A stretch of 64,000 nucleotides of DNA from Fulvia fulva (Eukaryota; Ascomycota; Dothideomycetes; Mycosphaerellales; Mycosphaerellaceae), in assembly GCF_020509005.1 (NCBI RefSeq), contig NC_063017.1:3410001-3474000 (forward strand), given 5' to 3'. The notes beneath the pieces are model-generated. The model ran no database searches. It was given only the letters and a program-made list of their open reading frames with translations, and was not told where the DNA came from. Position 1 is the first letter of the stretch; each line of letters starts with the position of its first letter. The translations under genes were made by a program, and so were the position numbers. Below, one piece after another: positions 2,495-20,342 of the stretch.

Positions 2495-5400
2495 GATAGA
2501 TAGATAGATTATTCATTCGCCTGTTTTAGTGCCCTATAGCCTATACAGGTCTCTCGCTATTTAGGTCTATTTGTATAGGTAGGAAACCCGATTAACGGAT
2601 GAAAACCTCCTCGTCTTTGCCCTCCTCGTTCTTTCCTGTCTTGTCCTTTCGTTCTCCTTCCTTTAGGGTACGCTAGTGTTATAGTTGTTACCCTATAACT
2701 ACCTTGCCCGTAACCCTAGTGATGTCCTCCTCTCGATTCCCTTTCTCCCTTCTGTTTCCCCGGCTCTTCTCTCTCTCTCCTTCCTCTCTATCCACCTTTC
2801 CATTTCTACTACTAGGGAGAATTGCTCTAGGTAGTCCTCGTTAAGGATCTATCTTATTACTCTCCTTATATCTTGTCTGTTCTGGATAATGGCCTAGTAT
2901 TGCCTATCTCTTGCCTTCGCCCTCTACTAGCTTCTCCCTTTTACCCACTTAGTACAGTTCAGCACTATGTGCTCCGGGTTTTAGGATAGGTAGCTATAGG
3001 GGCAACGTTTAGAATCGTATCCTAGGACTCTTCTTTAGTGCAAGTATGCTCTTAGCCTAATGTGCTCAGAGCGAATCTAGATAGCTATACTTGCCTCCGC
3101 CCTCTTCAGGTCTTTGTAGATAAGGTAGTTATACCTCCCGAAGGTCCTAGCCGCTAGTAGGGCTCCTAGCCTTACCGGTTTTTGGTTCTAACGCGTTTCC
3201 TATAGGTGACCTACGATCCTTTCTACTTGGCTTTACTTCTTTTTCCCTTTGTCCCCTGTGTTAGCTTGCTCCCTCAGAGCTTCTCTCTGTTTAAGGGCTG
3301 CTAGGATTTCCTATAATGTTTTTAGGTCTGCTTCCTTCTATAGGATTATATATAGCCGGTTAGGTCTTCTCCTCCTCTCCTACTAGGTTCTTATCCTTTG
3401 AGTAGCTACTTAGATGGTTCCCTAGGCTGGGTATACTAATGTCTTCTCTACGTATTGACACCTCATGCCCTGAAGGTACTCCCTAATAGGGGCTGTACCT
3501 GATTCCATTTCTATTGTCCTGTAAGGGGTTGACTTGTATACCCCTAGTACTCTCTTTAGGCAGGCTGCCTACGCTCTATTAAGGGGATCCTCAATTCTCT
3601 TCGGGATGTGTTTTTCCGCTGCCCAAATTGCTACTCTATATAGCATTACGGGCTTAACAATGGCCTTGTACATAGTCTAGGCCTTTGTGAAGGTCGCCCC
3701 CTAGGTTGACGTAGTGAGTCTCTCGATTAATTGTCTGTTAGTATCCGCTCTCGCTTACGCCTTCTTCACTTATGGTCCCTAGCTAAGTTTTGGGTCTAGC
3801 TATATCCCAAGGACTCTAAGTTCCCTTATAGGATAGGTCTCGAACCCCTAGATTTTTACTAGTGCTACTAAGTTATGTTTTGTCTTTGCCTTACTAAAAT
3901 AGATAAGTTAGTACTTGTCCGGTACGAATTTTGCCCTATACTCTCTTGCCCATTTTTCGTATTGTCTATATCTCTCCTCTAGGAGTGCGCAGTTTTCCTC
4001 TATAGACCCCGACTACGCTAGGATATTTGTGTTATCTACGAACCCTAATACTAAGGTGTTTGCTGTTTCTAGGAGTAGGGTCAGGTCGGCTACAAAGAGG
4101 AGGAACAGAATTGGGGAGAGTGTAGAGCCCTATAGGATGTCCGTATTCGTAATTAGGGTCTACGGGGCTTTAAAGGACCCTAGGAGGATCTGAGTTGTTC
4201 TGTCCTTAAGGAATGACTACACAAAGTGTACTATCTAGGCTAGGATGCTTTTTATTCTAAGGATGTGTAGGAGCCTTACGTAGGACACGTTGTCGAAAGC
4301 CCCTACTATGTCTAGTAAAAGTAGTAAGGCTACCTTATTGTTACTATAGTACTAGATGTGTCTGATTTGCTCTATGATCAGTTCGACTACTATAAGGGTA
4401 GATCTCTTTTGTCTCCCCCCCCTATTTGTATTACCGGGAGGAGGTTATGTTCTTCTACTATTCCGGTGAGCCTTATAGCTACGACCTTCTCTAGGAGCTT
4501 CCCTAGTATATTTAGTAACGTAATTAGTCTGTACGACTTCAACTTAGTATAGTCTTCCTTTTAGGGTTTCCTTAGGACGTAAGTTAGTAATTGCCTAAAG
4601 GCCTTTAGGTAATACCCCTACTTTATGTACTAGGTGAAGATTGGCGTAAGCACTAGAGTGATAAGGCTACGACTAGCTTTTAGGTAACAGTTAGGGATCT
4701 TGTCTAGGCCTAGGGCTTTGTTGCCCTTTAATTTCTTGATAATGTTTCCGATCTCTATAGTAGACACTTACTAGTTAGCCTCCCTTAGCGGAGGAATATA
4801 TATTCCTAGGATGTTGCTTAGGTCTGCCTCTACCTAAGTCCCGAAGAAGTAGTCTACGAATGCTTTCGCTTTCCCTATCGGAGTGGTTTGCGTTTCCCCG
4901 TCTTGGTCCTATATTAAGGGAAACTAGGGCGGGGAGTCTCGTTCCTCGTCTAGTTTCCTAGCCCATTCTACTAGTCTCTAGATTTGTTCCGGGTGTTCTA
5001 TGATCATCCCTATAGTTGACCTCTACTCCTGCGTCTTGTCTCTTCTGATCTACGCCTTCTTTGCTTTGTACGCGTTGTTATAGGCTTCCTAGTTTGCTTA
5101 GGTGCGTCGTTACTCCTATCTCCTTCTTGCTCTCCTTACCTCCTTGACTTTGGCTATATACTCTAGTGTCTAGTATAGCTTCTAGTATAGCGACCATCTC
5201 TTCTTAGGTATATAGGCCTAGGCTACCCTTTATATAGCTTCTATTAGCTGCTCTACTACTTAGTCGATCCCCTCCGTTATATATATGTCGTTAATGTTCA
5301 CCTGTTCTAGTTCGCCTTCTAGCCGCTGCTATACTAGTGTCCACTCGGCCTGCTTCTAGTAGAGCCTCCTCTTAGGTTCCCTCTCCTCCTCAACTATAAG

Positions 5401-7450
5401 TTGGATGTCGGTTTGAATTAGATAGTGGTCTAATAAGGACTCTAGTTAGTTATTAACTATACAGCTTTCTACCCGTCGTATTAAGGCGTAGCACATAAAG
5501 CATAGGTCTAGCGTACTAGAACTGTTGTTTCTAGCCTAAGTTTCTGTTCCCTTCGGCGTGATCAAGTCTATTTAGGCTGTTTCTATCTGACTAATAAGCC
5601 TCCCTACTAAGAAGTAGTATACTAGGGTGAAGTCCGATCCCTACTTTAGGTAGTAGAGGTTGAAATCTCCTATTACGATGTTATAGTTTTGTTAGTCTAT
5701 TGCTTCCGGGAGCCTTCCTAGCGTGTGTAGTTGTGTGCTGCTTCTGGACTCTAGAGGTGGGTTATATACGCTATAGATTAGGACCTAGCCTTAAGTTGTT
5801 TTGAGCTACACTATAGTAATATCCCTGTCGGTTCTCGGCTAGGCCTACTAGTCCTCTACTAGTACCTTCTTACTGACATAGATATATGTTCGTAGGACTC
5901 CCTCGGTTCTGTTTATTACTATATAGTATCTCGGGTCTCGTATAGTTAATGAAATCCTAGAGTATAGGTTGATCTACAGTTCCTATATTGCTATAATGTG
6001 GTGTTCCTCCGGGTCTAAGGCTTATAGAAAGCTCCTTTAGACCTTGTCTTTGCTTCTGTTCACATTATACTAAATGATTGATAGTCTATTAGTATAAGGC
6101 ATTAGGACATGTTTGTGTCTAGGTCCGTTTAGTCTTGCTATTAGCCTTGCTATTAGTTTTCCCGTCCCTCCTCCTATTCTTCCCTTTAGGGTTGGCTCCC
6201 TATTATTTAGTTGATTCTTATTTGTCTATTGCTCTGCGCTGCCTTATATAAGAACGTTAGTCTCCCTATTACTAGCACTATTTATGGCTCCTCTTATAGC
6301 CGGGGTCTCTTATTCAGGTAGGTGGTTCTTTCTAGTTGTTTCTGTTCACCTACTAGGAACCTAGTTGGTGTTGTTACCCTTGCTTCCCGCGCTCTCTACT
6401 AGGCTAATAGTCTAACTAGGCATTGGTTTGACCATGCCGGGTGTTTTCTCCTATATACTACGTATCTTGTGTCCTCCTTCCGTTTTTGGTACTCTTAGGT
6501 CGCGTGATCACTAGCATAGTAGGAGTAGACTAGTATAGCTTTGCTACACTTTAGGGCAATATGTCCGTACTGTTAATAGTTAAAACATTGAAGGATTCTG
6601 TGGTTGCTCTGATAGATTTCTACATCTAGCCTCTCAAAATCCTAGTACAACCCTTAGTCTAAGACCTTGTTCGCTTGCTCTAGTGTTACAACCTATAAGA
6701 TCAGCGAGGAGGCCCTCTTGCCCTCCTCTATCTTCTTCTTGACCTACGCTGTCTTTATGATCTATAGTCCTAGTGCTATTACCTAGTTTTGCCTCTAGAG
6801 GTTTAGTGTATCCCTTTATGTGTCAAAGGTTCGTAGGACCCTATACGCAATTACTATATACTGTTAATAGGAGACTTTCGCTATACTCCCGATCTTCAGT
6901 ATCTACTCCTTATTTATTTCGAGGGCCTTCTTGTCCTATACGTGTGCTATAAACAGCTTGACCCCTTTGTTGTCTACCCTTGCCCCTACTATTCCCTTTA
7001 CTCCGATCTTCTCGACTATCTCCCTCCCGGTCATCTTTCCTATCTCTTCCTTCTCTTTCTAGTCCGTAATGTAGACTCGTAGTACTATACTCTAAGGGGG
7101 GTAGGTTGGCTCGCGATTGTTGCCTAGGTCGTTAGGCCCTAGGTCTATCTCGGGTCTCTTTAAGGGTTGTTTCTTACGTTTCGTGTTGCTACCTCGATTG
7201 CCATGTTGATCGTAGTGCTTATTTGTTATTTAAGCGCCTTTAGTCCCCCGAGTAGTTCGCTTATTACTCCTTTTAGTGCTCTCTCCGGAAACCTTCCTTC
7301 TTCTACCGCTACTATCTCTTCCGCCTTCTTATAGAGCGTCCTCTACTCGTCTCCCCCTTACTCTCGGTCGTCTACTACCGTCGTCGTTACTATTTTTCTT
7401 TAACGGTACCGGTGCTATTAAGCTATATATATAGGAAGTATAGTAATAGG
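2495..7450 (-). mobile_element. LINE A, near full-length Tad/I-like non-LTR retrotransposon (dead)
   Basis: A 4956-bp insertion between 14-bp duplications. Its 3' end is at the low coordinate, with a (TATC)n-type tail (plus strand gatagatagatag at 2495-2507). On the minus strand, ignoring stops, the order is an ORF1-like region (about 7300-6190), an AP-type endonuclease (about 6110-5400, with YNVNRSKDKV, GDFNLYY and LDHYLI) and reverse transcriptase (about 4700-3700). The RT active site reads FVDNTN at about 4026-4043 instead of the usual FVDDTN, a change consistent with G-to-A RIP. By eye 5041-5160 has nine TG and no CA on the plus strand, so RIP looks one-sided. Many stops make it inactive. 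Confidence 0.88.
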
Positions 7451-7464
7451 TCCGTAGTTAAATA
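7451..7464. repeat. Target-site duplication, right copy, of LINE A
   Basis: Exact 14-bp match to 2481-2494. It marks the 5' end of LINE A and shows that the insertion is complete at this side. Confidence 0.9.
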
Positions 7465-8880: not shown

Positions 8881-11160
8881 AGTTATATATATATTGTTTA
8901 TTATGCTATTACAGAGCCTATTAGCCTATATAGCTATACTATCTACTTCTAGTTATAAAGGGGAAACTCGTATTATAGAGTAAAAACCCCCTCTCCTCTC
9001 CTATACGTTCTTAACCTTGCCTTCTTTTGTGTTTTCCTTATTAAGGGTATACTAGTATTATAGACCTGCCCTAATAACTACCCTATCTACACCCCCTTAA
9101 CCTCCCGCCTCTTCTCTATCTACTCCTCCGTCTCGCTAGCTAGCGCGAACTATTTAAGAAAGCCCTACTATAGTATCTACTATACTATCCGTCTTACGTC
9201 TCGCTTGTCTGTTACGATTAACTAGTAGTCGCGTCTTACTACCTTAGCTCTCTACTAGCCTCGTCCTTCTACCTATTACGGGTACCGTAGTATTATATAC
9301 TCCGGGTTCTATAACGGGTAGTTATACTAGTATACTAGGCTATATACGTCCGGGACTTTCCTTCTATATAGGTAGGCCCTTAACCCAATATATTCGGACC
9401 TAATCTATATTGCGATACTTACTTCGGCCCCTATTAGGTCACGGTAGAGTAGGTAGTTATGTCTCTAGAAGGGGCGTAAGGCTAGGGGTCCTCGATTTAG
9501 TAGGGGATTCTCTTTCTATTCCTATTCCTAAAGGTAGCCCGCTACCTACTCTATAAGGCTTTACGTCTTTACCTTATTACCCTTTTTCCTCCGTACCTTT
9601 TCCTCCTCCTCCTTCCTCTCTAGCCACTCCTAGGTTCGCTTAACGACTTTAAACGTATATAGGTCGTCTTACTTTTAGCTTTAACGTACCCTAAGGCTAG
9701 GTAGTCGGTCGTACCTCCTAGCGATCTTCTCCGTAGAGTCCCGAATAGCTTATTATACTAGATAATCCGCCGTCTTCCTAGCGTATTAGATCCTCGTTCC
9801 CTTAATGTAATGTTTAATCGGGGGGGGCCCTATCTCTACCTCCGCTACTCTCGTTAGCGTTATCTTATAGGCTCCTAGTATCCGTCTAAGGTTCGCCGCC
9901 TACGTCCGGTTTAGGGGTCCCTCTATCCGCTTCGGGATCGGTTTATCTACTCCTCCTGTCCCCTATATCTAGGCCCCGTAGAGTATTACTAGTTTTACGG
10001 TCGTCTTATATATAATCCTTACCTTATTAAACGTAGCTCCCTATATTAACGTTATGAGTCTAGTTATTATAGCCTCGTTAACCTAGGCTCTATTCTAGGC
10101 TTTCCTAATCTAGGGGTTCTAGCTAAGCTTAGGGTCTAGCTAGATTCCTAGGACTCGTAATTCGGGAGAGGGCTTCGTTACGTAAACCTAGATAGTTACC
10201 GTTACTTATATATTATAGTAGGTTCTTACCTTGCTAAAGTAGATAAGCTAGTACTTTTCCGGGGCGAAACGGGCGCCGTATCGACGTACCTATTCCTTAT
10301 ATACCTCGTGTCTTTCTATAAGTAGCCGGTAGTTCTCTTCGGTCGTCGTTAACTAGACTAGGATGTTCGTCTCGTCGACGAACCCCGAGGCCGACGTTTA
10401 TCGTAAGGTGAGTAGTAGGATTAGGTCCGCTATAAAGATTAAGAAGAGGTATAAGGATAGTATTAAGCCCTAGGAGATCCCGGATTCTATATATATAAGG
10501 TTGCCCTCCTTACGCTTCCTAAAGATAATCTACGTTATTCTCTCCTTAAGGAAGGAGTTTATAAAACTTATTACCTACCGCGGGATTCCTTTTTACCGTA
10601 GGATATAGAGGAGTCGCTCGTAGGAGACGTTATTAAATGTCCCTAAGATATCGAGAGATAATAGTAATATAACCCTGTTCCGTCTATAGTACTAGAGAGT
10701 ATAAATCTGTTCGGTAATAAGCTCTATAGCCGTTAGGGTAGATCGTTTGCTCCTACTACCTATCTATATCTCTAGGAGTAGGTTATTATCCTTAACGAGC
10801 TATATAATTCTTCTTACTACGACCTTCTCTAGTATCTTTCTAATTATATATAGGAGTACGATCGGCCTATAGGACTTTAGCTTTATATAGTCTTCCTTCT
10901 ATAGCTTCTTTAGGACGACTATAAGGGACCGCCTAAATAGCCGTAGGTAGTACCCCTTACGTAGGTAAGCCGTAAATAGTTCGGCGAGGTATAGGGCGAC
11001 TTCTTCTTTATATTCTTTAAGGAGGAGGTTTAGGATACCGTCGGGTCCCGGGGCCTTACGGCCCTTTAGCTTTCCTATAATCTCCTTTATCTCCTCCTCG
11101 CCTACTATCTAGTATATATCGAGTAGCTCCGGGTAGATCGTTCCCTCTATGTCCGTTAGT
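8881..11160 (-). mobile_element. LINE B, 5'-truncated Tad/I-like retrotransposon (RIPed)
   Basis: The low-coordinate end matches the 3' ends of LINEs A and C (the plus strand at 8900-8990 lines up with 17510-17590). On the minus strand, with stops ignored, it encodes the C-terminal half of a LINE ORF2: KGRKAPGPDGIL near 11065, a DISGAFD-like motif near 10650, FVDETNIL near 10370 and a Cys/His-rich end. CA and TG are depleted on both strands. It stops at 11160, where segment X begins. No clear target-site duplication was found. Confidence 0.78.
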
Positions 11161-11334
11161 AAGAAAGGAATTATATTTAGTAAGCTAGCTACGAGATAAG
11201 GTAACAAGTCTTAACCGCGCTTTCCTACTTATCTAGTACTACCGTATAGCCTCGTTTCGAGAGGTTAGCCCGGAGCAAAAGCTTCCCTCTACGCCCTCCC
11301 TCCCTATTTACTCCTTAAGCTAATATCTACCTCG
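11161..11334 (-). repeat. Segment X, copy 1 (RIPed), fused to LINE B
   Basis: 174 bp that align without any gap to 19251-19424. In the aligned core from 11167 the differences seen by eye are 13 transitions, nearly all CA-to-TA or TG-to-TA toward this copy, plus one end difference. This copy is therefore the RIP-mutated form. X does not extend the LINE reading frame. Identity unknown; see the copy at 19251 for folding potential. Confidence 0.8.
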
Positions 11335-11540
11335 ATACCTATATAGGCCGGATGAGTATACTATATTATATAGCTACGGACGATACATTCGAAAGGGCCC
11401 TAAAACACAATATATTCGAAAGCTCTTATTAAGGCTATTCTAACGATATATAAAGTAGGCCACTACCTATAGAATTGAGGGAGTTCTACCTTATTTAATC
11501 TAGACAGCTTGAAGTTCTCTTCACCCTATTTCTTTAGCTC
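11335..11540. other. Unassigned RIPed stretch between LINE B/X and LINE D
   Basis: CA- and TG-poor DNA with no frame that I can tie to LINE or Gypsy proteins. It may hold the 5' UTR of LINE D or host sequence between two back-to-back insertions. Confidence 0.4.
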
Positions 11541-14500
11541 TAAACGCCGCGGAGGTGCCTAGCTATATTAGGCAACTCCTAGGTAATAGTAGCCTAGGCT
11601 ACGGTACTAACGGCGCCTACGGCTCTATAGGCGAAGCTTCCCTAAGACAACTAGTAGCAACTTATAGAGGACGTAAAAAGTATAGAAACTAACAATCAGC
11701 TCCCTTACCGGTCTCTATAGGTAATGATTACTTAGCTACGTACGGCGCTTATACTGTCGTATTACTAAGGGCAATAAGAAATAAGGACGACGTCCTAGGC
11801 GATTAGTAAGGCCACCCGGAATTAACACCCCTATAGCTAGGCATCGGTCGCGGCATCGATACTAGGCCCCCGCCTAACGTACGATATAGTTACGATCCGC
11901 ATTATAGTAAAGGAAGACTAGGCCGAAGTTACGAAGCTATCGAATAAGGAGCTCGCCTAACGAATTAACTAACTAGGGGTGGTCGTAGTAAACTAATAGT
12001 CTAACGGCACTCTATAGATCTATACTAGCTCTACTACTACTAGGAGGTACCTAGAGGTATAGCTATAGTAGGTATCTAAGGTTACGGTATTAGCAAAGGT
12101 CTTAACGAAGTAATTTACGATCCTAGTCTACGACATACCTAAAGAGTTCGACCTAACTAACTAAGGTCACCTACGCGCTCTCTAAGAGGATAACCCGGTT
12201 ACTCTTAACTCTCTAATCTAGAAGGCGACTTAGCTCTATAGGAAATAGCTAGAAGGTAAGAAGGCCTCGGCGCTAATAGTATAGCTATAAGACGCGAAAG
12301 CGGCGGATCTAGCGATAGAACAAGGCCTAGTCTAGTAATATAGCCTTAAGATAGTAGAAAAGTACTCCTTATCCTTTCGTGTCCTCTAATACTTCAAATG
12401 CTAACAGTATAGACACCAAACCTATACGTATATAAACAAGTAGGCCTACTCGAACTATATAGGAGACTATATATCTAGGGACTATATATCGACTACGAGA
12501 CGGTACGCGAACTGTCCGGGGTACTACCTATTATATAGTACGGAATGCCTATAGCGGAAACTAGCGAAGAACAAGGCAATTATAAACAGAACCGTCGCCC
12601 TAAGATTCTACGGCGACCGTAAGGCTAGTCTATACCGGAACTAGCTAGCGGCGGTCGGGTATAAGCGCCCTAGGGCCGAGAACGATATAAAGGATACGTA
12701 ACCTAGGGCGTACGGGAGGCCACGTACTCTACTAGTTATAGTAAGGGAATCTAACTAGGCCCGGCTCCCCTTTAGTATATAGCCGATAGGCGTAGACTAG
12801 GACGTATATATAGTAGGACATAGGACGCTATAGAGGAAATGATTGTCGATGCTAATAACTAGCCTCGATACGCTTAGTATTATCTAGTATAACGTTAACT
12901 ATAGTAAGGATATAGTCTAGAACCATTTCCTATACGAGGCGGACCCGCGCGTCCACTACGTCCTTATAATCTAGGAGCTATAGATTAACCCGTACTATAA
13001 GAGACTAACGACCTACAAGTTACTAGGCTACACGATATGCCTACGAGGCGACGGTAGACCCCGTACGTATTTCTATATTAGTAAGGACATACTAGAATTT
13101 AACTAGGAGGTAGTGTACTATATAGACGAAGAAGGCGGGGGCGATATTACCTCTCTCTACGTAGGTAATACTTAGATACACAATATATATATATATAACC
13201 GCTAGCCTCGAGGTCTAGCCGCGACCTTAGGGTCTATAGATACCTAGATAGTACGCTTAAGAGACAAGGGCGCTACATCGTAGTAGAAGACTTTAATATA
13301 TACTACCCTTCCTAGGAAAGCCTTATATAGCCGTACCCTATAGCCGACGAAGTACTCGACTTGATAGCGAGTAACGTAATTGCCCTTAATACCCCGAAGG
13401 ACCTAGGCACCTAGAAGAGAGGGGGACTCTAAGGTACGATCGACCTCTCCTAGATCTTAGATAGCTACTACTATACGGTAACCTACTATAGGATCGAACA
13501 TAAACTCGAGGCGTCGTTAGACTATATACTAGTTAGGACCTCTATTACAATATAGATATAACGTATACTAGCGAGAACCCCTAAGCTAAACTAGGGAAAG
13601 GCCTACTAGGCTAATATCTAGGCGTACCTTAATGACTCTAAGAGGCTAGTCTAGATCGCGTAGTAGCAATACAATAGTAAAGACGAGATAGACGAGGCAG
13701 TCTAGAGGTTAATAGACGAAATAAGAAAAGCGACCTTACTTTACGTTCCGCTTACCTAACTAACGATATAGTCTAAACTATACTAGACGCCGAAGTATAC
13801 TACGGTAGTAAGAGAAGTAAGGAGAGCCCGCCGGGTGTAGACGAGTAGCTATAGCGAGGAGGCCTAGAACGTATATAGGGAGGCATACTAATAGAAGAAA
13901 GCTATAATACGGAGGGAGAAAGCAGTCGGCTAGAGGGCTATAGTAGAAGAAATCGCCGGCAAGCTAGCGAGGATGTAGAAGCTAGCGAAATAGGCCCGAT
14001 AGGACCCTATATAGAGCCCCTCCTTCTCTATCCTAGCGCTATAATCGCCTAGTAGCCCGGTTAGCGACCCCGAGGCTAAGGCGCGTCTACTAGCTAGTAA
14101 GTTCTTCCCGCCCCTAGTCGAGGCTAATCTAAGCGACATAAATAGCTCTACTCCCCTAGCCCCTAGTATCGCGGTCTAATAGGAGGTGTCCGAGGGAGAA
14201 GTTACCGCTATACTAAGGAAGTTGCCGGCAAAGAAATCCCCGGGGCCGGATAGGATCCTAAACGAGCTACTAAAGAAGTGTAGAGATCAACTAGCCCTAG
14301 TAGTTATAGCGATCTTTAACGCCTACCTATAGACCGGATACTACCCGATAGTATTTAAACAATCGATGATAGTAGTCCTACGTAAGCCGTAAAAGGAACA
14401 CTATACGTAGGTGAAGTCGTACCGCCTAATTACGCTCCTTAACACTCTTAGGAAGGCGCTTAAGAAGCTAGTTATAACGAGACTCTCCGAGGCGGTAGAG

Positions 14501-16345
14501 GAACACTCCCTACTCCCGGACACCTAGATAGGTACGTGCCTATAGCGATCGACGCTATCCGCGATAGAACTTATTACCTCTTAGGTAAAGGCTATCTAGT
14601 ATAAGAATAGGGACAAGGTGGCTTCCTTACTTAGCCTAGACATATCGGGAGCCTTCGACTATATATTATACCCGCGGCTACTCTATATCCTAAGGTCGAA
14701 AGGACTCCCTAAGTAGCTTATTAACTTCGTACGGTCCTACCTCTAAAACCGTAGTACGTCGATCCTAGTCGGCTAGTATTGAAGCCTATTTTAAGCAGTC
14801 TACACTAGAATCCCGTAAGGCTTAACGCTAGTACCTATTCTGTTCCTCTTCTTTATAGCGACGCTACTCCTATCCCTAGAATCCTAGAACACCGCTACGA
14901 GCGGCTTCGTAGACGACACGAACATCCTAGCGTAGTCTTCCTCGACTAAGGAGAACTATAGGCTACTAGAAGAGAAGTATAAGATCTATAAGGACTAGGC
15001 TAGGAGGTATAGGGCTCGGTTTGCCCTAGAAAAGTACAATCTAATATACTTTACGCGCCGGCTACGATTCTATAACATATATACTTCTATCTAGATATAG
15101 GGGTGTACTACTAACCCGGCAAATTAGCTTAGGATCCTCGGACTATAGGTAGACCCGGCGCTACGGTAGAGGAAGTACGTATAGGTAATATTACGGAAAG
15201 CTAAACAGAACATAGTACTATACTAGAGGCTTACTACGTCTATATAGGGGGCGGACTTCCGGTAGTCACGACTTCTATATATAGCTATTATACGGCCAGT
15301 CCTTACCTATAGTAGCTAAGTATAGTCCTTAGGCGAGAGGGCCTACCTATCGAAGGGACTCGTCGCGCCGCTAGCGAAGATCTAAAACCAATGCCTAAGG
15401 AAGGTCACCGGAGTATATAAGTCGATACTAACGAGGATACTTAAGTACGAGACCGCTATACCGCCGATCGACCTATATATCTAGGGACTACGGACCTCCT
15501 ACTTAGGCAAGTCGGCATAGTACCTAGTATAGAAGGTTATCGCTAGTATAGTCGTAAGGGCCCGCGAATTAGTACTAGCGTATAAGGGCATTTGACCCGG
15601 AAACGAGCCGAACTACCGGGTAAGGGACGAATAGCTAGTAATATAATAGGAAGGTAAGAAATCGTTTATAGAGTAACTATAGAAAGAGAGGTAGAACAAC
15701 TAGGTTATAGGGTATAGTAGACGCCCTTAGCTAGCGGGACAACCTAAGGAATAGTTAGCTACGAAATCCGCGGTCAAGTACCCCCCGAAGCTTATCTACT
15801 ACCGCCTTACGAGGGTATAGAGTAGTATAGTAACCTAACTACGAAGCGAACATATCGGCCTCTAGGGGTACCTATTATAGAGGAAGGTTCTAGGATATAC
15901 GAATACTAGCTGCTCCTACGGCTATCGCTCCTAGAACGTATAGTACGTACTCCTCGTCTATCCGAGGTAGTCGCTAGGAAGGGGGGAGTAGATAGTAAAG
16001 GCGAGGAACCGGACGATTAGGGCACTTCTTAATAACGCTAAGGACCTACGGCGTATTACGAACTAGATACTAGAGAAGGGCTGGCTAGAATAGTACTGCC
16101 TAGTAGGAGTAGTATAGGAAGAGAGGACACGACGTAGCGCGACGAGACCGGCTAGGAGCGGGGGCTAACGGGGTAGTAATATAGACTACGTACGTTTAGA
16201 GGGAAAGCTGATCTAGATAAGGAGTAGTCGGGGGCGGGAAGGGTTTTCACCTATTCGGGTTTTCCTTTATATCTAATAATAGATATATACCTATATAGGC
16301 CGAGTAGGGTCCTAGAATAGGGGAATGACAAATCTATCTATCTAT
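11541..16345 (+). mobile_element. LINE D, near full-length Tad/I-like retrotransposon (RIPed)
   Basis: Plus-strand order with stops ignored: ORF1 with zinc-knuckle-like Cys/His spacing (about 12370-12570), AP endonuclease (about 12880-13500), reverse transcriptase (about 14200-15200, with AKKSPGPDRILNELLKKC, SLLSLDISGAFD and GFVDDTNILA at about 14905-14935) and a C-terminal Cys-rich end (about 15900-15980). It ends in a (TATC)n tail at 16331-16345, directly abutting the RNase H of Gypsy B. The 5' boundary is approximate and no target-site duplication was seen. Stops from RIP are abundant. Confidence 0.78.
16331..16345 (+). repeat. (TATC)n 3' tail of LINE D
   Basis: The tetranucleotide run aatctatctatctatt ends the element. 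The same repeat, reverse-complemented, lies at the 3' ends of LINE A (2495-2507) and LINE C (17487-17495), so this LINE group ends in a tetranucleotide repeat and not poly(A). Confidence 0.75.
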
Positions 16346-17471
16346 TAACTAGGTGAGCAGATTTAGGTAGAAATAGACTCTAGCGACTAGGTTAATATAG
16401 AGGTACTGTTATAGATAATTAACGGCGTTCTTAGACCCGTAGCGTTCTACTCGAAGAAGCTTAGTCTATAAGAATATAACTACGACATTTACGACAAAGA
16501 GCTACTAGCTATCGTTAAGGCGTTCGAGGAATAGTAACCGGAACTTATCGGCGCTATAGACGATAAGCTAGTTCGGGTACTTACCGATCACCGTAATCTT
16601 AAGTACTTTATAACTACTAAGTAGCTTAACCGGCGCTAGGTACGCTAGACTAAGTTCCTGTCCTAGTTTAACTTTAAGATTACCTATCGCCCGGGCGTCT
16701 TAGGAACGAAACTAGATAGTCTTACCCGTCGCTCTTAGGATATACCGGCGGGGGTAGACGATACTAGAACGTAGTATTAATAATAGACTATTCTAAAACC
16801 CTATAACCTAGATATCGTTACTTAGTTTACTATATAAGTATAGAACGACCTACTAATAAACTATTAAGTACTATTAATTTACGACTCGGACGATAAAGAA
16901 GAAGACTACTATACTAGTAATATCGCTACCCCCGGTAATTAACCCGCCTCGCCTAGCGAGACGTAATATAGCTATTACTCGAACTAAACGACGCCGAGGT
17001 AGGTAGTAACGTCGACTCGGAACTAGATAGTAGAGTCCTAGTCGAAGAGACGCCTAGTAACGAGTAACCTGTCGAAGGAAGTATAGAGCCGTTAGATAAA
17101 CCTACGCTACTAGAGGAACGGGAGTAAACGGAGTTATATAAAGAAGAACTATATATAGAAGCATATAATAGCCGGTCTATAACGACACGTATACTTAAAC
17201 TAAAGTCCGATCTCTAGTAAGAGATCGCTAACGTATAGCTATAATAATAGAAGATTGCCGTATTAGATTACGAAATTATCGCGGATTAACTATACGTCGA
17301 CAAAGCCTTATATATCCTAGCCTTTTAGAACCTCTGTACCCGGATAGTACGCAAATACTATAATAGTAGAGTAGCTAGCTACTAAGGTATAGTAAGGACT
17401 TTTAATCTACTATAGAGACAAAACCTCTTCTAGCCTAGTATAGTAAGTAACGTCGTAAGATACGTACGATA
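16346..17471 (+). mobile_element. Gypsy B retrotransposon, RNase H part
   Basis: Plus-strand frame with RIP stops reads VEIDSSD, then LRPVAFYSKKLS, YNYDIYDKELLAIVKAFEE, VRVLTDHRNLKYF and FNFKITYRPGVLGTKLD, a typical Ty3/Gypsy RNase H. The reverse transcriptase upstream is missing because LINE D abuts here. The region after about 16760 is the weakly conserved linker before integrase. It is cut at 17471 by LINE C and resumes at 20343. Confidence 0.85.
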
Positions 17472-17486
17472 CTACCTAATATATAG
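17472..17486. repeat. Target-site duplication, left copy, of LINE C
   Basis: The 15-bp word ctacctaatatatag occurs here and at 20328-20342, flanking the whole LINE C plus X plus Y unit inside Gypsy B. Confidence 0.88.
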
Positions 17487-19250
17487 ATAGATAGATATTT
17501 CATTAAGCTGTTGTAGTGCCCTTTGGCCTATGCAGCTATGCTATCTTGTTTTTGTATATATAGAGGGGAAACCGTGTTGGTGAAAACCCCTCCTCCTTCC
17601 CGCCTGTCTTTTCCTCCTCGTTGTCGTCTTAAATTTCCCTTGTTAGGGGTACGCTAGTGTCATGGGCCTGCCCTGATGACTACCCTATCTGCAACCCCCC
17701 TCGCTTCCGCCTCTTGTCTATCCACTCCTCCGTCTCGCTCGCGAGGCTAAACTGCTGGAGGTATCCCTGCTGTAGTATCCACCGAGAGATTCGGCGAATG
17801 TTGCCTTTGTCCCTAATAATTGACTTGTAGTCTCTCCTTCCCGCTTGGTGCCTCCAATTTCCCCTGCCTCTCGCCCACTGCGGGCATCGTAGTAGCATAT
17901 GTTCTGGGTTTTGCGATGGGTAGCCACACTGGCAGGCTGGGCTATAGATGTCTAGTGCGCGTCTTCTGAACAGGTAGGCCCTTAATCCAATGTGTTCGGA
18001 CCTGATTTGGATCGCTATGCTTGCTTCGGCCCTTGTCAGGTCCCTATATAGCTGGTAATTGTGTCTCTGGAAGGCTCGGAGCGCTATCGGGCCTGTTGTC
18101 TTAGGGGGCTTCCTTTTCCAGTCCTGCTCCCATAGGCAGCTCGCTATCTGTTCCGCTAGGTTTTGGGTCTTAGCCTTGCTCCCGCCGGCCTGGCGAGTCC
18201 TACGCTCCTCCTCCTTTCGTGCTAGCCATTCGGTGCTTGTCTGTACGGCCGTAAAGGTCGTAAGGTCATCCTCTTTTTGGCTTGTCCTATATCCTGCCCC
18301 TCTCCGGTAGCGGCTTTCTATCTTATTCTTTGCCTCCTGGATCGTGGTTTGTGCTAGGTAACCTGTCGTCTTTGCCGCGTATTGAATTCTCATTCCCCGG
18401 ATGTACTGGCCGATTGGTGGTATTCCTGTCTCCATTTCTACCGTGCTTGTTGACGTTGTCTTGTATGCGCCTAGTACCCTACGTAGGTTGCCTGCCTGTG
18501 TCCTGTTTAGGGGTTGCTCTATCCGTTTCGGGATCGGCTTGCCTGCGCCTCCTGTTCCCCAAATCTGTGCCCCGTACAACATAGCTGGTCTGACGATCGC
18601 CTTATACATTACTCTTGCCTTGTCGAATGTTGCTCCCCATGTAGATGCCGTAAGCCTCTTTATCGAGGCTTCATTGACTTGCGCTCGACTCTGGGCTTTC
18701 TTAATCTGTACATTCCAGCTTAGCTTCGGGTCGAGCCAGATCCCTAGTACTCGTAGCTCCGCTGATGGCTTGGTCTCGTAGCCTTGGATTCTTACCGCCG
18801 CCTTCATATTATGGTGTGTTCTCGCTTTACTGAAGTGTATAAGTTGGTACTTTTCAGGGGCGAACCGGGCACCATGCTTCTTTGCCCACTCCTCGCATTT
18901 CTTGTGCCTATCTTCAAGGAGGCGACAGTTCTCTTCTGTCGAGTCTGACCAGGCTAGGATGTTTGTATCGTCTACGAACCCCGATGCTGAGGTTTGCGGA
19001 GAGGTGAGTAGGGGGATTAGATCCGACATAAATATTAGAAACAGGATAGGGGAGAGAGTAGATCCCTGAGGTATTCCAGTCTCTGCCTTCACCGGGTCGG
19101 ACGTGTACCTTCCTAGGACTAGGTATGTCGTCCGTTCCTGGAGAAAGGAGAAGACGAACGACGTTGCCCACTGGGGGATGCCTTTCTGCTGTAGGATATG
19201 TATTAGCCTTTGGTGTGAGACGTTGTCGAAGGCCCCTGCGATGTCGAGGG
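17487..19250 (-). mobile_element. LINE C, 5'-truncated, not RIPed
   Basis: 3' half of a Tad/I-like LINE with its tetranucleotide tail at the low-coordinate end. CA and TG are at normal levels (11 TG and 7 CA by eye in 17881-18000), unlike the flanking Gypsy B. It therefore inserted after Gypsy B was mutated, or escaped RIP. The body breaks off inside the reverse transcriptase, and the 5' side is segment X and then segment Y, all inside one target-site duplication. Confidence 0.85.
17680..19250 (-). pseudogene. LINE C reverse transcriptase C-terminal fragment
   Basis: An open frame of about 520 codons with no internal stop. It begins abruptly at the X junction with LALDIAGAFDNVSHQ and continues with ETGIPQGSTLSPILF, the active site GFVDDTNILAW, a thumb-like region and an RNase-H-less C-terminus ending in a zinc-knuckle-like CQCGYPSQNPEHMLLRCP (C-x-C, H, C). 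It lacks the endonuclease and the N-terminal RT motifs, so it is a fragment that cannot transpose by itself. No natural start codon is evident. The clean frame contrasts with the stop-ridden copies A, B and D. Confidence 0.82.
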
Positions 19251-19424
19251 CAAGGAAGGAATCGTATTTAGCAAGCTAGCTACGAGATAAGGTGACAAGT
19301 CTTAACCGCGCTTTCCCACTCATCTAGCACCACCGTGTAGCCTCGTTTCGAGAGGTTAGCCCGGAGCAAAAGCTTCCCTCTACGCCCTCCCTCCCTGTTT
19401 GCTCCTTAAGCCAATATCCACCTC
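19251..19424 (-). repeat. Segment X, copy 2 (unmutated), fused to LINE C
   Basis: Gap-free partner of 11161-11334 and the non-RIPed form. The LINE junction falls in the word aagRaaggaa shared by both copies, so its exact point is ambiguous by a few bases. ggagcaaa (19363-19370) and tttgctcc (19398-19405) are perfect inverted repeats, and ctcgtttcgag (about 19342-19352) can form a small hairpin, so X could fold as RNA. I do not recognise it. Confidence 0.8.
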
Positions 19425-20327
19425 CATAGGCCTAAGCCCTTTAGTGCTCTCTATTGACCGACATGCGCATCCGTCCTCTCGGGCTGTACAGACAGTGTCA
19501 GCCGTCGCTGCCAGTGTACACCACGCCCCAGGTTTTGACGCCCTTCGCGTTACCGCAGCCTATCTCTAGAAAGCGGCCGTCCATGCCTCGCAGGTTTGCT
19601 CGGGGCACACACCACGCCGGGCAGCGTACTCCTTGCGTTTCCACCTACTAACCAATATGAAGTTCCTTATCACCCTGCCCTCGATCCTCCCCGATCACAG
19701 AACTAATCCACTTGCATTGTACGTCTTTTCCCCGTCCTAACAGCCGTCTTTTCCTTGCTCAGGCTATCGTCTTTTCCTCGTCGCAATTTACCATGTCAGA
19801 CTAGGTGCGTTGTGTAGCGGGACAGGCAGTGCCTCAGGCAAAGCCCTCGTTCCCATACCGGGTGTTCAACAGGCCCTTACAGGCTTCGTCGCGTGTCCAC
19901 CTACCCACCGCATTGCCCGCTGGCAAACACCAGATTGTTTCGTAGTCCGCTCGACGCCGTTGCATAGTCCGCTCAGTTGTTGTTCTGTAGTCCGCTCGTC
20001 CAATGTTCGTCGCTTAGCCCGCTCGGTTTGCGGTCTCCGGAGGTGAAAATTCTGCACTCATACCAGAGGTGTCCTGTCGAGCGTATAGGCCACGGTTCCG
20101 CGCCCTTCTTACACGTAGAAAGAAGAGGGACTCGCTCCCGACACGAGTACACGCTCGTCGGATGGTTTTCATACCCGTTTTGCTGGTAGTCCTCTGTTCG
20201 CCGCGGCTTCGCCTACGCTACGCACCCGTCGCGCCTACGACGCTCCAGCGTGAGAATACTTGGCTCTCTCGTAGCTAGACGAGAGGTTCGTAGCCGACAC
20301 CACGTACAGGTGATTCTCGTCGTCGAC
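19425..20327. other. Segment Y, unexplained non-RIPed cargo of LINE C
   Basis: About 900 bp with normal CA/TG content between X and the right target-site duplication. No convincing protein in any frame. It holds four copies of TAGYCCGCTCR (starting at 19943, 19965, 19988 and 20015) and a perfect 7-bp hairpin (ctctcgt 20266-20272 with acgagag 20279-20285, loop agctag). It travelled with LINE C, because the duplications enclose both. Confidence 0.6.
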
Positions 20328-20342
20328 CTACCTAATATATAG
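20328..20342. repeat. Target-site duplication, right copy, of LINE C
   Basis: Exact 15-bp match to 17472-17486. Gypsy B integrase sequence resumes directly afterwards. Confidence 0.88.

Follow-up and report, generated by a model that had tools for sequence, protein, structure and literature searches.

The closest described systems to the elements treated here are chimeric retroelements in which another RNA is fused to a truncated long interspersed nuclear element (LINE). In Magnaporthe grisea, the WEIRD-MGL chimeras (MINE) carry a 5' component of 1,113 nt, for which the cited part of the paper gives no solo copy, and include a double jump (PMC2104539). The same part lists 31 MINEs with 28 switch sites and the consensus GCC*A/U; in our own count of its Table 3, 17 of 18 rows have G-Y-Y (R, purine; Y, pyrimidine) immediately before the site (PMC2104539). 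U6-L1 and other mammalian chimeric retrotranscripts, as summarized there, are full-length cellular RNAs fused in sense to a 5'-truncated LINE and bounded by direct repeats (PMC2104539). Here we describe composites of this kind in Fulvia fulva (Cladosporium fulvum). The window, that is, the whole stretch of 64,000 nucleotides analysed (contig C6, positions 3410001-3474000, of assembly G000, which has 67,169,167 bases in 14 contigs), contains two of them, B and C, in which a segment that we call the donor adjoins a 5'-truncated LINE. Judged from the DNA, B and C are very probably chimeric retroelements that arose when a reverse transcriptase (RT) switched, before the LINE RNA had been fully copied, to the 3' end of a single RNA. 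In the cited part of its genome description, C. fulvum Race 5 has 67.17 Mb in 14 chromosomes, with the LINE Tad1 making up 16.3% of the genome and heavy repeat-induced point mutation (RIP) (PMC9453070). The name Tad1 for the present LINEs follows that published annotation, our own assignment being an RVT_1 match alone (PMC9453070). The two composites are laid out in the window as follows.

17473..17486, no strand: target-site duplication of composite C, 3' side, TACCTAATATATAG on the plus strand.
17487..19250, minus strand: LINE C, 5'-truncated within RT motif A, with a (TCTA)n 3' tail; RVT_1 match on the open frame, E 1.9e-22.
17680..19275, minus strand: open frame of LINE C, 531 codons from stop to stop, extending a few codons into the donor end.
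19251..20328, minus strand: donor unit of copy C, 1,078 nt; 5' end at 20328, on a base common to other loci; 3' end ...GATTCCTTCCTTG at 19251, the same in 100 of 100 sampled copies.
20329..20342, no strand: target-site duplication of composite C, 5' side, abutting the first base of the donor.
8885..11159, minus strand: LINE B, truncated at its 5' end some 500 bp further 5' than C; approximate 3' border; duplication looked for and not found.
11160..11337, minus strand: donor remnant of copy B, donor positions 901-1078, 5'-truncated.

A first-pass annotation of this DNA had noticed a segment, X, shared by B and C. X aligns without gaps over 174 positions (11161-11334 against 19252-19425), as it had said, with its coordinates in C one base off. 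The 15 differences are 14 transitions and one transversion at the outermost base, in line with the RIP that had been proposed; 11 of the 14 lie in CpA/TpG context when read from C to B, as RIP would give. The LINE bodies are indeed far more diverged than X (66.4% identity across 1,574 aligned positions), and the joint of C does correspond to a point about 500 bp inside LINE B. X is not the stand-alone unit that it was taken for. It is only the 3' 174 nt of the 1,078-nt donor: the sequence in C continues to 20328, and the apparent outer border of X is the place where the donor copy of B stops, at donor position 901. The word aagRaaggaa, read as homology shared at the joint, is the donor's own 3' end, and the intact LINE sequence before the break differs from it. 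The B junction is also found with a longer donor at C3:1042395, and this copy and the one in the window are the only two of 40 scored matches that cross the B joint. At 11337/11338 in the window, the truncated donor of B and another LINE, D, meet head to head, and B lacks a duplication. The rest of the B donor may have been lost through insertion of D or through a deletion.

A 33-nt pattern from the core of X, with up to two mismatches allowed, occurs at 597 places in the assembly. The reversed pattern, used as control, occurs at none, so X recurs beyond chance. Sequence slices were taken around the first 100 listed of the 597 places, which lie on contigs C1 and C2 and match the pattern without mismatch. 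The gap-free donor match stops at the same position in all 100, and the donor 3' end TTCCTTYCTT is exact in 98. The last donor base is G in 55 slices and A in 45, a split expected if RIP acted on TG; C follows it in 85 slices, T in 14 and G in one. Downstream of this fixed end, the 100 slices fall into 60 sequence classes, nearly all from LINEs of several families. The sample includes two tandem groups (five and three copies), and the independence of the copies is therefore slightly overstated. These groups are arrays of composites: one at C2:2705722-2718994 (L161-L165), with one junction and a spacing of exactly 3,318 bases five times, and one at C1:8826150-8835488 (L130-L132), with one junction and a spacing of about 4,670 three times.

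The other end of the donor is also constant. Sixteen of 20 printed loci begin with GGTCGACGACG at exactly the same base as copy C, and the other four are off by one substitution or a one-base shift. The first 49 nt of the donor, with up to three mismatches, occur at 404 places in the assembly. At eight loci, including B, the donor match falls short of the 5' end. One older-looking donor (L192, C2:1632256, minus strand; 96.1%) has a small deletion and a less AT-rich flank, and its usual end is joined to diverged RT-like sequence.

LINE partners in the 100 slices were assigned by DNA, at >=83% identity, to family C (36), family D (32) and family A (9), with 15 from more diverged relatives and eight unassigned. 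Among the latter, L101 is a donor joined to a donor, most of the others can be matched to LINE copies when longer DNA or the protein is compared, and L086 has no match. At the sites checked against a reference, donor and LINE are joined without spacer and in the same orientation, the donor presumably being transcribed in that direction. In four composites of the D family (L026, L037, L109 and L170), differing short sequences of up to about 50 nt lie between the donor end and the common D sequence (AACACGACACATTCGAAAGC-like). Either D may have a heterogeneous 5' end or these composites may include a third, short segment.

The break sites were compiled from 130 records (the 100 slices and 30 loci, at least seven of which are the same copies) and comprise 68 classes. 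An uninterrupted LINE copy was found for 56 classes, and the 52 with a copy at >=85% identity were used for motif counts. The base before the break is C in 38 intact sites, T in 11, G in two and A in one, and the base after it is C in 45, T in six and G in one. A or G occupies the position two bases before the break in 47. The motif RY|Y (the bar marks the break) is thus present at 44 of 52 breaks, compared with 10.5% of positions in LINE parts free of RIP (binomial p 2.4e-35, with sites treated as independent). The pattern is lost when the break is shifted, with the exception of +1, the following base being a pyrimidine as well (YY at 49 of 52). The joint may include a one-base overlap, with the donor ending in ...GC. 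Furthermore, one break place recurs in three families, 17, 15 and 18 nt upstream of the AFD codons, which we take to be motif A of the LINE RT. It is used by seven C-type copies, six D-type copies and five copies of a third family in the 100 slices. This recurrence is either a hotspot or the result of one founder per family.

Donor and LINE were inserted as one piece, as seen from the duplications that enclose them. In the window, composite C is flanked on both sides by CTATATATTAGGTA: one copy abuts the first base of the donor and the other follows the (TCTA)n tail of the LINE. The 3' ends were computed for 24 loci, 20 of which were fetched. In 15 of these 20 composites, a repeat scoring 10-16 extends from the first base of the donor (offset 0 in all 15) to just past the LINE tail. 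The scores of 500 mismatched pairs, used as control, have a median of 7, a 95th percentile of 9 and a maximum of 13. Three further short composites have repeats of 12 nt (one base off the donor start), 14 nt and 14 nt, the last with one C/T difference; the truncated L027 has none at the tested place. Seven copies with the identical C junction (window, L001, L002, L003, L005, L007 and L028) carry different duplications.

Donors are also joined to donors. At L101/L102 (C1:4550195 and 4550903), the donor's usual 3' end meets position 371 of a donor; 708 bases further comes the next X, which is joined to a D-family LINE. A second joint of this type, at another donor position, is present at L206 (C3:1274049). 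Such joints are expected if the RT jumps to the 3' terminus of one RNA, but not from deletion or recombination within LINEs.

We propose the following course of events. During target-primed reverse transcription, the LINE RT would copy the 3' part of its own RNA, halt at a preferred RY|Y site and leave the LINE RNA. Synthesis would then resume at the 3' terminus of another RNA, non-coding and about 1,078 nt long, and the joined donor and LINE cDNA would be inserted as one piece. At the eight loci with a short donor, B among them, synthesis may have stopped a second time, within the donor. Some composites, such as those of the C type, may later have been transcribed and copied again as a unit. 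The jump itself, and the existence of the donor as a free RNA with that 3' end, are deduced from the products. A jump onto an RNA 3' end without homology is part of the known RT biochemistry of another element, whereas here it is known from genomic products only. The first-pass annotation had already proposed the capture of one donor by template switching. The fixed donor 3' end, the 60 junction classes in 100 copies, the several LINE families and the target-site duplications speak for it. Its further claim that the captures were independent agrees with the many junction classes, but need not extend to the C-type junction, which recurs and may have spread as a unit.

Several results weigh against the proposed capture or restrict it. 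The recurrence of identical junctions means that many copies are not independent captures. Five of the 20 composites (L008, L014, L024, L026 and L031) have no duplication at the predicted place, nor does B in the window at the place tested. A first duplication scan stayed at control level (four of 32 against 3.45) because most loci fell short of the 3' end, and it was superseded by the test on 20 composites. No solo donor gene was found among the 55 of 404 donor 5' ends that were inspected.

Among the alternatives, secondary spread survives best. Here, capture would be rare: a few events would have founded composite families, of the C type and others, which were then retrotransposed as units, so that most copies are secondary. 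We regard this as possible, though on balance somewhat doubtful. The seven identical C junctions with different duplications are what it would give. In addition, the donor variants at positions 109 and 111 are common to L003, L005 and L006 and are not seen in L050 or L170; L005 and L006 share their flank, which makes these three loci two insertions. With LINE site 215, the variants occur in only three of the four combinations, which fits one tree but is also compatible with repeated capture from several donor alleles. On the other hand, 60 classes in 100 copies still demand many captures, and a C joint shifted by one base (L142), together with the homologous joints in two other families, points to a hotspot as well. 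Capture by template switching remains the preferred origin of the composites, with C-type copies probably also propagated as a unit. The seven C-type copies (window 17680-19275 and the L001-L007 set) are identical across 225 nt despite heavy genomic RIP, and this identity together with the open RT frame indicates recent activity.

Transfer of the donor from one founder composite to other LINEs by DNA recombination or gene conversion is highly improbable. Some junctions are indeed common to copies in different places, and the tandem arrays demonstrate that composites are duplicated at the DNA level. However, neither a single donor end base everywhere nor the RY|Y motif would be expected from recombination, and the tested composites carry different duplications. 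It is a shade less credible still that a full-length LINE has the donor as its native 5' end and that B and C are internally deleted copies. As this would require, the donor always lies 5' and never changes orientation, and some of the joints in family D are close to the 5' end of that element. In contrast, 60 classes of LINE sequence follow a donor that ends at one and the same base, a near-identical donor is common to diverged families, and the donor-donor joints have no place in this scheme. Two other LINEs of the window serve as references.

2495..7450, minus strand: LINE A, 4,956 nt, bounded by duplications and without donor; full length judged from size only.
2481-2494 and 7451-7464: duplications of LINE A, 14 nt each.
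11338..16349, plus strand: LINE D, head to head with B, the reference for many junctions; borders approximate.

LINE A, the sole LINE checked in this respect, has no significant similarity to the donor around its 5' end (a 16-nt match with E 0.043 is the best), contrary to what a native 5' end would give; its reading frames are disrupted by RIP. Spliced LINE transcripts are known in human as retrotransposed SpIREs (spliced integrated retrotransposed elements), and a fixed upstream with a variable downstream boundary is the pattern of splicing, but a donor serving as first exon, joined to cryptic LINE acceptors and then retrotransposed, is scarcely tenable and was rejected: the acceptor AG stands directly before the break in one of 52 intact sites, C or T stands there in 49, and the donor-donor joints would require the donor to act as acceptor too.

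Both ends of the donor are constant across copies, which makes it a candidate for a full-length copy of a cellular RNA. Inverted repeats in X had suggested a structured RNA, and this candidate was rejected: X (z 0.32) and the 390-nt 3' part of the donor (z 0.70) fold no better than dinucleotide shuffles. The Rfam search of the window gave no match at the gathering score, the two matches near the donor being far under it (17.3 against 45 bits and 12.4 against 40 bits). Three donor open reading frames, of 63-79 amino acids, fall short of the Pfam cut-off (the best reaches 17.4 of the required 27.4 bits). No tandem repeats were found in the donor at score 30, and the donor pattern has 0 matches in IMG/VR. 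The 55 inspected 5' ends comprise 31 on C1 and C2, four known composites (L004, L005, L006 and L170) and 20 more. Among the 31, 29 have X at the exact distance and were already among the slices, and two are composites by sequence (L191, joined to LINE C, and L192, with only a 43-nt LINE match). Eighteen of the 20 run into a LINE or into sequence common to other composites, L206 runs into a donor, and C2:5658591 lacks the donor end. This last locus has a perfect donor 5' end and a 28-copy repeat at the expected place of X, and is probably an interrupted donor copy. Donor ends followed by a purine were also screened as candidates for solo copies, and both places found are joined to LINE D. The source gene may be among the remaining donor 5' ends or absent from the assembly, or the RNA may be made from the composites.

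Capture is no rarity in this genome. Among the first 100 listed of 650 C-family LINE 3' ends, 24 are preceded by X on the same strand at a distance of up to 6.5 kb, compared with nine that have X on the other side. For family D the numbers are seven and three among the first 100 listed of 1,406. A wider reading is that LINEs routinely use one dedicated non-coding RNA as second template, with the enzyme moving to its 3' end after RYY stops. Dead 5'-truncated copies would thereby gain a defined 5' end, perhaps a promoter, composites such as C could spread, and the donor and WEIRD would be the same functional RNA in two distant fungi. This we consider unlikely. No other fungal case was found in the literature, subscription papers lying mostly outside the search, and the word 'chimeric' is absent from the main texts of two C. 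fulvum genome papers in the form available.

Varying LINE truncation, direct joints in the same orientation and flanking repeats, three of the features given for LINE-derived bipartite chimeric retroelements in the cited part of that paper, are all found here (PMC2104539). As in U6-L1, the donor is fused in sense to a 5'-truncated LINE between direct repeats, although it is not U6 or another Rfam family. The likeness to MINE, as far as the cited part describes it, is closer. In each case 5'-truncated LINEs are preceded by a full-length non-coding unit about 1.1 kb long (1,113 nt in MINE, 1,078 nt here), duplications surround the whole composite, no solo copy was found and double jumps occur. 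The breaks are of the R-Y-Y type in both, with the cut set one base earlier here (RY|Y, 44 of 52). The two systems differ in that a pyrimidine follows the break here (51 of 52), whereas the consensus there has A/U, and in number, with about 600 donor copies here against 31 MINEs. The comparison suggests that C. fulvum joins Magnaporthe as a second fungus in which a WEIRD/MINE-like system operates. Its donor copies, about 600 where Magnaporthe has about 30, allow switch sites to be mapped statistically and compared with the Magnaporthe motif, and the nature of the captured RNA and the reason for its preference to be addressed.

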